From Desulfovibrio sp. OttesenSCG-928-I05 (lineage in GTDB: Bacteria > Desulfobacterota > Desulfovibrionia > Desulfovibrionales > Desulfovibrionaceae), in assembly GCA_030266385.1 (NCBI GenBank), contig JAJDHY010000003.1:1-38094 (forward strand): a DNA stretch of 38,094 nucleotides. The letters are read 5' to 3'. The notes under the pieces are model-generated. The model saw nothing but the letters and a program-made list of their open reading frames with translations, made no database searches and had not been told where the DNA came from. Each line of letters opens with the position of its first letter. Positions within the stretch are counted from its first letter, which is position 1. The position numbers and the translations under genes are program-made. Positions 20,982-22,772 of this stretch are shown here, piece by piece.

Positions 20982-21010
20982 TTGACGAGAAGACACTTGC
21001 GTTCTATTAT
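20982..21010 (+). promoter_or_regulatory. Sigma70-type promoter of the ABC-F transcript
   Basis: TTGACG (20982-20987), exactly 17 bases, then TATTAT (21005-21010) on the plus strand. The expected start near 21017 gives a ~275-base leader before the ABC-F gene. Confidence 0.75.
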
Positions 21011-21055
21011 ATTGCCGCGATACAAATTGGTGAAACCTTAACAGGAACAGGCCCG

Positions 21056-21073
21056 ATGAAGAATTCCCGCTAA
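21056..21073 (+). CDS. Candidate five-codon leader peptide (MKNSR)
   Basis: ATG-AAG-AAT-TCC-CGC-TAA lies ~40 bases inside the predicted transcript. AGGA is found about 10 bases upstream of the ATG. Antibiotic-resistance ABC-F genes often carry very short leader ORFs whose stalled translation relieves a downstream terminator. Assignment here rests on position and context only. Confidence 0.45.
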
Positions 21074-21093
21074 CACCTGATTGACAGTGTTTG

Positions 21094-21242
21094 CGCCGAA
21101 ACACGGCGAAGCCACAGGCTTCGGCAGTTTCCGGCGTGCGGGAATTTTACTTTACCGGGGATGATCCTGATACCGGGCGCGTTACAGCGTCCCGGTACGC
21201 GTGGATGGACTGCGGAAAGAAAATTTCCGGCAGTCTTTTTTT
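21094..21242 (+). promoter_or_regulatory. Attenuator in the ABC-F leader
   Basis: A first hairpin (21094-21139) pairs GCCGAAAC with GTTTCCGGC around an inner CGAAGCC/GGCTTCG stem. A second lies at ~21170-21198 (TACCGGG/CCCGGTA). An intrinsic terminator follows at 21208-21242: GACTGC+GGAAA pairs with TTTCC+GCAGTC, then seven T. It ends 48 bases before the ABC-F start. The upstream TTTCCGGC segment repeats the terminator's right arm and could pair with its left arm as an antiterminator. Transcription would stop unless translation or drug stress rearranges the leader. Confidence 0.7.
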
Positions 21243-21290
21243 GTGCCCGCCAGCCAAGGCGGCGGGACTATCCGGCGGGAGGTTCCCTGT

Positions 21291-22772
21291 ATGGCTCATA
21301 TTACCATTTCCAATCTTGGCTTCACCCACGACGGCGGCCAGGTGATTTTCAGCAATGTTTCCCTGCAACTCGATACCCGATGGAAACTCGGCCTGATCGG
21401 CCGTAACGGACGGGGAAAAACAACGTTCCTTAAACTGCTGTGCGGGGAATACCCCTATAGCGGCAGCATCCACACGCCCGTTACCATGGAATATTTCCCC
21501 TTTGCCGTGCATTCGCCCGGCATGACGGGAGCCGCCCTTGTCCACAGCCTCATCCCCGACCTGGAAGACTGGCGGCTGGAACGGGAAGCATCGCTGCTGG
21601 AACTTGCCCCGGACGTTCTTGAACGGCCCTTCAATACACTCAGCGGCGGGGAAGCGACCAAACTGCTGCTGGCCGCCCTCTTTTTGCGCGACGACAGCTT
21701 TCCGCTCATCGACGAACCGACAAACCATCTGGATATCACGGCGCGGGCGGTCGTGGGCAAGTACCTTCGCGCCAAAGAGGGGTTCATTCTGGTTTCCCAT
21801 GACCGCAGCCTACTCGACAACTGCGTGGAGCACGTGCTGTCCATAAACAGGGCGGGGATCGAACTGCAACGCGGCACCTTCAGTTCCTGGCAACACAACC
21901 GCACATTGCAGGACATGCACGAACAGGCGGAACACGACAGCCTGAAAAAAGAAGTCGCCCGCCTGGAACGCAGCGCCGCGCAAAGCGAAACATGGTCCAG
22001 AAAAACAGAAAAAGGAAAGTACGGCAACGGCCCGGTGGACCGGGGATTTATCGGACACAAAGCCGCGAAAATGATGCAGCGTGCCAAATCCACGGAAACC
22101 AGACGGAGGAAAGCCGCCGATGAAAAGTCGCTCCTGTTGCGCAATCTGGAAAATCAGGAACCGCTGACCATGCGGCCCCTGACCTTTCACAGCAGACGGC
22201 TGGCCGAACTTTCCGCCGTTTCCGTAAACTGCGGCGGCGCACCTGTATCGCCTGCCGTCTCGTTCAGCATCATGCAGGGAGAACGCCTTGCGATTTGCGG
22301 GAAAAACGGCAGCGGCAAATCATCCCTGCTGAAACTGCTGGCCGGGGAGCTGCCCGAAGGATGCGCGTATCAGGGCAAGCTCCATCTGCCCCCGAGTCTG
22401 CGAATATCCTATGTGCCGCAGGACAGTTCCTTCGTGCGAGGGTCCCTCAAAGAACACGCCCGGCGACACGGGATTGATGAAAGCCTCTTGCGGGCGGTGC
22501 TGCACCGTTTCGGCTTCGGTCGCGACCAGTTTGATACGGATATGGCGGACTTCAGCGCCGGACAAAAGAAAAAGGCTCTCCTCGCGGCGAGCCTGTGTGT
22601 CGAGGCGCATCTGTATATATGGGACGAACCCCTGAACTACATTGATGTTCTCTCACGCATCCAGATTGAAAACGTCATCGTGCAGTACAGGCCGACCATG
22701 ATCTTTGTGGAACACGACCGCGCCTTCGTGGAGAACGTCGTAACGGAGACTGTGGATATGGATCAGGAGTAG
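21291..22772 (+). CDS. ABC-F ribosomal protection protein, Lsa-like
   Basis: This 493-residue protein has two ATP-binding domains and no membrane segment. NBD1 has GRNGRGKTT, LSGGEATK and LIDEPTNHLD. NBD2 has GKNGSGKSS, FSAGQKKK and IWDEPLNYID. A basic helical interdomain linker (~residues 200-290) would reach the ribosomal E site and peptidyl-transferase centre. The sequence FENVS-like core, WKLGLIGRNGRGKTTF and IWDEPLNYIDV resemble Lsa/Vga-type proteins that displace lincosamides, pleuromutilins and streptogramin A. GGGAGG precedes the ATG at 21291. The gene has its own promoter and attenuator and is opposite to its ilv neighbours, suggesting acquisition. Drug spectrum is inferred from family only. 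Confidence 0.88.
   Translation: MAHITISNLGFTHDGGQVIFSNVSLQLDTRWKLGLIGRNGRGKTTFLKLLCGEYPYSGSIHTPVTMEYFPFAVHSPGMTGAALVHSLIPDLEDWRLEREASLLELAPDVLERPFNTLSGGEATKLLLAALFLRDDSFPLIDEPTNHLDITARAVVGKYLRAKEGFILVSHDRSLLDNCVEHVLSINRAGIELQRGTFSSWQHNRTLQDMHEQAEHDSLKKEVARLERSAAQSETWSRKTEKGKYGNGPVDRGFIGHKAAKMMQRAKSTETRRRKAADEKSLLLRNLENQEPLTMRPLTFHSRRLAELSAVSVNCGGAPVSPAVSFSIMQGERLAICGKNGSGKSSLLKLLAGELPEGCAYQGKLHLPPSLRISYVPQDSSFVRGSLKEHARRHGIDESLLRAVLHRFGFGRDQFDTDMADFSAGQKKKALLAASLCVEAHLYIWDEPLNYIDVLSRIQIENVIVQYRPTMIFVEHDRAFVENVVTETVDMDQE

Follow-up and report, generated by a model that had tools for sequence, protein, structure and literature searches.

The leader of an ABC-F gene in Desulfovibrio sp. OttesenSCG-928-I05 is very probably a ribosome-mediated transcription attenuator, in which a ribosome stalled on a short upstream open reading frame (uORF) would free an antiterminator and turn the ABC-F gene on. 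The element is real and functional-looking, was found in a new host group and belongs to what appears to be an uncatalogued family of lsa leaders. Evidence for this comes from the order of the elements, from their conservation, from covariation of three competing helices and from constrained folding.

Elements of the leader

The window is the whole stretch of DNA that was analysed, 38,094 nucleotides of contig JAJDHY010000003.1 (C96 in source genome G000, which is 54% complete). The leader and its gene comprise the following features.

20982-21010, + strand: sigma70-type promoter, TTGACG-17-TATTAT, matching 10 of 12 consensus positions and recurring in six relatives
21040-21046, + strand: Shine-Dalgarno region of the uORF, AACAGGA, unchanged across 7 of 7 aligned leaders
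21056-21073, + strand: uORF encoding MKNSR and a stop (ATG AAG AAT TCC CGC TAA), seen in the sequence and conserved in relatives
21060-21070, + strand: 5' arm of helix P1 (segment A), inside the uORF at nt +5 to +15, pairing with segment B
21128-21135, + strand: TTTCCGGC, more likely the 3' side of an inner stem of the P1 hairpin, paired in both folds
21138-21148, + strand: 3' arm of P1 (segment B), P1 being the predicted anti-antiterminator from folding and from covariation in Bacillota
21138-21157, + strand: predicted 5' strand of the antiterminator (AT), B and the following 9 nt, GCGGGAATTTTACTTTACCG, with 17 pairs to 21213-21231 and a 10-pair core that covaries in 23 Bacillota leaders
about 21168-21199, + strand: second hairpin, which would cap the antiterminator, from the fold and from hairpins at the same place in several relatives
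21208-21242, + strand: intrinsic terminator (T), arms GACTGCGGAAA and TTTCCGGCAGTC, an 11-pair stem of 21208-21218 with 21224-21235 and seven U at 21236-21242, from a terminator scan, conservation and covariation
21213-21231, + strand: predicted 3' strand of the antiterminator, made of the end of the terminator left arm, the loop and the right arm, from pairing and constrained folding
21277-21282, + strand: Shine-Dalgarno sequence GGGAGG of the ABC-F gene, whose ATG is at 21291
21291-22772, + strand: Lsa-like ABC-F ribosomal protection protein (P0001, 493 residues), from NCBIfam scores and a PDB match

The promoter has its -35 box (TTGACG) at 20982-20987 and its -10 box (TATTAT) at 21005-21010, with a spacer of 17 nt; the combination of TTGAC(G/A), a 17-nt spacer and a TA-rich -10 box is common to the six relatives. 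Transcription is predicted to start near 21017. The long hairpin runs from the uORF to 21148, and 48 nt lie between the end of the terminator (21242) and the ATG of the ABC-F gene (21291). All the parts listed in the initial annotation, namely promoter, MKNSR uORF, long hairpin, second hairpin and a terminator 48 nt before the gene, were located in the sequence. Its choice of antiterminator, the TTTCCGGC copy, did not hold up. The copy exists, yet it more likely forms the 3' side of an inner stem in the long hairpin and stays paired there whether the RNA is folded free or with the ribosome footprint blocked; pairing and covariation favour 21138-21157 instead.

The leader folds with an energy z-score of -7.2, and none of 200 shuffles was equally stable. 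Dinucleotide shuffling of the same stretch brought together a promoter, an SD-preceded uORF, a duplex sequestering the uORF and a terminator in one case out of 300. A search of the leader against Rfam returned no family at gathering score or at E <= 1.

The downstream gene

The gene product scores 428.7 bits against NF000355 (ribosomal protection-like ABC-F), above the cut-off of 380. Its best-scoring family is NF000167 (Lsa), at 617.5 bits; since this is below the curated cut-off of 750, the protein is called Lsa-like rather than Lsa. The closest PDB structure is that of Lsa(A), 7nhk, which matches over 486 residues at E 5.6e-110, and by this likeness the protein probably shields ribosomes from antibiotics. 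A PADLOC match to mads_3 was set aside, as it is confined to residues 106-187, a short ATPase segment.

The proposed switch

In the proposed model, ribosomes would translate the five-codon uORF when no drug is present and then leave. The RNA of the uORF (21060-21070) would pair with 21138-21148 to form P1, the terminator at 21208-21235 would form, and transcription would halt before the ABC-F gene. The inducer would be an antibiotic of the peptidyl transferase centre that halts ribosomes at initiation or immediately afterwards. A ribosome with the uORF AUG in its P site covers the RNA to about +16. A drug-held ribosome on the uORF start codon, covering about nt -15 to +16, would thus hide the whole 5' arm of P1 (+5 to +15). 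Once freed, segment 21138-21157 could pair with 21213-21231, the loop and right arm of the terminator, while these are being transcribed. With the terminator blocked, ABC-F protein would be made and the ribosome protected. Drugs that halt initiating ribosomes would suit so short a uORF. Lincosamides, pleuromutilins and streptogramin A do so, and Lsa proteins counter the same drugs; these are the predicted inducers.

Central to the model is that 21138-21157 is the object of two competing pairings, P1 (21060-21070 with 21138-21148) and AT (21138-21157 with 21213-21231). The initial annotation had proposed folding the leader in both states. Constrained folding of the family leaders gave the predicted outcome for the free RNA, which retains P1, and for the occupied one: when the ribosome footprint was blocked, B was freed in 6 of 6 leaders, and when the right arm was in addition only partly transcribed, AT was favoured in all six, with 3.8-14.9 expected B:T pairs and fewer than one terminator pair. 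One leader, L005, is an exception: part of its AT already forms in the free RNA when the right arm is incomplete. With the complete terminator, the equilibrium folds are divided: the terminator has 8.2 expected pairs against 4.9 for AT in the window, and it wins in L112 and L004. Because of this division once the whole terminator has been made, the switch must act kinetically, with AT forming first. Antitermination by forming first is usual for such switches.

Conservation in the host family

The ABC-F gene was found in eight of the 288 genomes of the host family, spread over five genera. Six of the eight carriers have the attenuator leader; L114 and L115 are without it. Absence of the terminator and leader ORF from relatives had been named at the outset as grounds for giving up the attenuator, and the architecture is in fact kept in five other family genomes, whose ABC-F proteins are 61-71% identical. 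Comparison of the leader peptide and the stems in homologous loci, likewise proposed there, found both conserved in the six family leaders. The uORF peptide is MKNSR, MKYSR or MEHSR, each followed by a stop, in all six. The segment GCGGGAATT lies 82-88 nt after the uORF ATG in these leaders, and the terminator ends 101-111 nt further on.

A covariance model built from the six family leaders (R1) was searched over the 288 family genomes. It gave six strong matches (E 1e-52 to 1e-57), each directly before an ABC-F gene; after a gap, the next-best matches had E-values of 4e-5 to 0.009. For P1 and the terminator together, 94.7% of cells are paired over the six family sequences and four pairs are changed on both sides; for AT the figures are 92.1% and two double-sided changes, a count reached by 28 of 500 shuffles. 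Covariation within the host family alone, with its six sequences, is thin.

Counterparts in Bacillota

Upstream of Lsa relatives in Bacillota, the parts occur in the same order. An example is the plasmid-borne lsa(E) of Enterococcus faecium (L197:1127-1352), which has the full attenuator layout and a uORF encoding MYNFSC. At this locus a further stretch of about 150 nt lies between the attenuator and lsa(E).

The Bacillota lsa leaders, lsa(E) included, resemble the leader in the window in part order, with the uORF paired to B and B also pairing with the terminator right arm. They are alike too in spacing (about 61-82 nt from A to B and 66-88 nt from B to T, with one of 117) and in the Ser codon before the last residues of the uORF. 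They differ in the peptide, which is mostly M-x-x-F-S-C(-K/R) before the stop as against MKNSR in the window, and in their AT-rich arms, TTCTTGC/GCAAGAA as against TTCCCGC/GCGGGAA in the window's family. The core is TTCTTGC/GCAAGAA in most Bacillota and TTCCTGC/GCAGGAA in two of their leaders (L032 and L037).

Covariation was measured in 23 Bacillota lsa leaders of the same layout, the uORF and pairing cores having been anchored by hand across loci. Double changes occur at six pairs of P1, five pairs of AT (which has a 10-pair core) and nine pairs of the terminator. The covariation score of each of the three helices lies above every slid register and was reached by 0 of 500 shuffles, which is strong evidence but not a probability, since the shuffles keep relatedness in. 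Strands also prefer their own partners. The P1 duplex has -15.5 kcal/mol in the host family and -11.8 in Bacillota, against -3.6 and -7.7 when partners are swapped; for the AT duplex the values are -19.1 and -17.6 against -12.0 and -8.9 kcal/mol.

Alternative explanations

One alternative keeps the attenuator and changes the signal. Ser-Arg (or Ser-Cys) before the stop could be a nascent-chain arrest motif, with the drug stalling the ribosome at the last codons or at termination, as macrolides do with MsrDL. A Ser before Arg or Cys and the stop is conserved across two phyla, MsrDL stalls at its own stop codon (PMC10314930), and the identity of uORF(MIN) matters for vmlR (PMC10201436). The same codons, however, double as the 5' arm of P1, so base pairing alone explains their conservation. 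Positions 2 and 3 of the peptide vary (MKN, MKY and MEH; MIN, MYN and MKK), a five-residue peptide barely reaches the exit tunnel, and Lsa-type proteins counter drugs that stall initiating ribosomes. Peptide-specific stalling is therefore rather unlikely. The ending Ser-Arg might also call to mind a trp-type attenuator that responds to arginine or serine starvation. There is no run of one codon, the gene downstream encodes a ribosome-protection ABC-F and not a biosynthetic enzyme, and the Bacillota counterparts end in Ser-Cys or Ser-Cys-Lys/Arg, all of which makes this explanation very hard to credit.

Another group of alternatives concerns the terminator. The leader might mainly act on translation, hiding the Shine-Dalgarno sequence of the ABC-F gene instead of stopping transcription. 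GGGAGG is predicted to be mostly paired in the full leader, and both layers are used by vmlR and cplR (PMC9226507, PMC10201436); but the terminator is strong and conserved, and occluding the uORF barely alters the predicted pairing of the Shine-Dalgarno sequence. A mainly translational mechanism is accordingly improbable. Finally, the terminator could be static, for instance that of another transcript, with fortuitous hairpins around it. Such sites are common, the scan giving nine in 3.5 kb where 4.5 are expected. No + strand gene lies directly upstream, however (ilvC is on the - strand), and relatives keep the order from promoter to gene, the uORF and three alternative helices, with covariation, which leaves a static terminator with very little probability. 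Transcription attenuation through the uORF remains the preferred reading.

Lost and variant leaders

A natural deletion of the switch is found in L114:1355-1492 (genome G207). The promoter, AACAGGA, ATGAAA and the gene are kept. ATGAAA runs straight into ATTTCCGACGGTTTTTTT, which resembles the terminator right arm and U tract, so that nothing remains of P1, AT or the left arm; the new ORF encodes MKISDGFFVR. The ends of the deletion are alike, as can be seen in L112, whose uORF contains GAAATATTCCCGC and whose right arm contains GGAAATTTCCGGC; this is expected, because both strands pair with B. It looks as if slippage between these two similar segments deleted the switch. Since the switch is missing, constitutive expression is predicted. 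In the eighth ABC-F carrier, L115, no such leader was found.

Variants were also observed upstream of other Lsa genes. In the Paenibacillus branch (L117 and L196), an ATG directly before a stop (ATGTAG, ATGTGA) or, in L196, a short frame ending there (MDRM) stands where the uORF would be. These are possible minimal start-stop leader ORFs. A deeper Lsa branch (L038, L039, L040, L126 and L131) has uORFs of three to four codons (MRK, MKK, MKNR, MFNR), with P1 built on another sequence, for example AATAATTCACTTTTG and CAAAAGTGGATTATG in L039.

Host and setting of the cassette

The ABC-F gene is on the + strand, flanked by ilvN and ilvC, which are both on the - strand. The cassette (20783-22883) lies antisense inside the ilvN-ilvC gap. 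This gap is 31-375 bp long and has no intervening ABC-F gene in 18 of the 19 relatives whose ilvC locus was fetched. The sister species G001 (98% complete) is among the 18 and has no close relative of the ABC-F gene. The inserted cassette may cut ilvC off from the ilv operon promoter. On the - strand, a divergent promoter-like site (21005-21034; TTCACC at 21034, TATAAT at 21006) has a -10 box that overlaps that of the ABC-F gene; it could drive ilvC and couple ilvC to the ABC-F gene.

Judging by lpxC, which is present in G001 and in two ABC-F carriers, the lineage is Gram-negative. It also seems to be mostly sulfate- or sulfite-reducing, since dsrA is carried by six of seven sampled relatives of the host family. 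Both traits agree with a placement in Desulfovibrionaceae. No dsrA match was found in G001, in contrast to the six other members sampled, and dissimilatory sulfite reduction may have been lost in its genus. Neither dsrA nor lpxC was found in the source genome itself, which at 54% completeness is uninformative. The initial annotation is supported, though with a different antiterminator, in placing a leader-ORF transcription attenuator ahead of an Lsa-like ABC-F gene and in taking the host to be Gram-negative.

Descent and transfer

A protein tree made without rows from - strand matches of the genome search gathers the eight family ABC-F proteins into a single group (support 100/100). This group joins the Bacillota Lsa proteins; the tree does not settle how those branch around it. 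Patchy presence and the position between ilvN and ilvC suggest horizontal gain, with Bacillota probably as the donor. In a phylum-wide sample of 395 genomes, a relative of the gene occurs in just three more, at 45-46% identity and all in one other family. Leaders were read in two of these three, and neither has a clear copy of the attenuator. In one locus of that family (L264, upstream of a 45% identical ABC-F gene), GGGGGTTAACATGAAGAGATAA encodes MKR, and a small hairpin separates it from the gene close downstream; this is perhaps an unrelated short attenuator.

Cross-searches with covariance models connect the two groups of leaders weakly. A model built from Bacillota leaders (R2) matches family leaders at E 0.02-0.16, and it did not match the leader in the window at E <= 1. 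R1 reaches the correct places in some Bacillota loci, with a best E of 1e-4. With matches this weak, common descent of the RNA is likely and not proven; it is argued from layout, spacing, the protein tree and concerted changes of the core, and not from the covariance models. It is reasonably likely that these leaders, from Bacillota and from a Gram-negative, mostly sulfate-reducing family, belong to a single attenuator RNA family that is uncatalogued, shares a common ancestor and travels with lsa-type ABC-F genes across phyla. On entering a GC-richer host its three-way core would have been rewritten in concert, from TTCTTGC through TTCCTGC to TTCCCGC, both partner strands changing to match.

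Known systems and significance

Among the closest known systems is vmlR (ARE2) of Bacillus subtilis, for which a scheme of anti-antiterminator, antiterminator and terminator was shown by experiment (PMC9226507). As proposed for the window, the vmlR uORF lies inside the anti-antiterminator (SL-1), SL-2 sits at the antiterminator apex, SL-3 is the terminator, and a PLSA-type ABC-F gene follows (PMC9226507). The likeness is one of layout. The vmlR uORF is MIN, and a hairpin sequestering the Shine-Dalgarno sequence and NusG pausing are documented for vmlR.

Short uORFs also precede the PLSA ABC-F genes cplR of Clostridioides difficile and lsaA of Enterococcus, and cplR uses both transcription and translation attenuation through its uORF (PMC10201436). 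Their uORFs differ from MKNSR, being MR[I/M] and MAGN (PMC10201436), and the cplR terminator hides the Shine-Dalgarno sequence of the gene, whereas the terminator in the window ends 48 nt before the start codon. Of the features of the vmlR/cplR/lmo0919 kind, the leader has its location 5' of a ribosome-protection ABC-F gene, an intrinsic terminator between uORF and gene, a short uORF with a Shine-Dalgarno sequence (as judged by sequence and conservation), and a mutually exclusive antiterminator (as judged by pairing, covariation and constrained folding).

Such attenuation had been described initially as established mainly in Firmicutes, so that a Desulfovibrionaceae copy would be new. This was overstated. 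Attenuated ABC-F genes are known in Streptomyces (are5sc and tiaA; PMC12421871), and the attenuation of streptococcal msrD was studied in E. coli, the gene occurring in some proteobacteria (PMC10314930). These systems share ribosome-mediated attenuation of ABC-F genes and show that it reaches beyond Firmicutes, but have other uORFs, and msrD answers macrolides by nascent-chain stalling. ABC-F proteins of the Lsa subfamily (ARE3) have been recorded in Proteobacteria, in a paper without discussion of attenuation (PMC6723617). In the open-access literature, no description came up of this leader in sulfate reducers, of the F-S-C uORF that goes with lsa(E)-type genes or of attenuation of lsa(E) itself. 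The principle is known; the present copy, and the presence of the switch in two phyla, seem not to have been described before.

The leaders form a compact, testable family that includes lsa(E). Within it, L114 is a natural case in which loss of the switch predicts constitutive expression. The case suggests that a resistance gene can cross a phylum boundary with its drug sensor attached. If gene and sensor cross phyla together, anaerobic Gram-negatives could carry inducible ABC-F resistance that stays silent when they are tested without an inducer.
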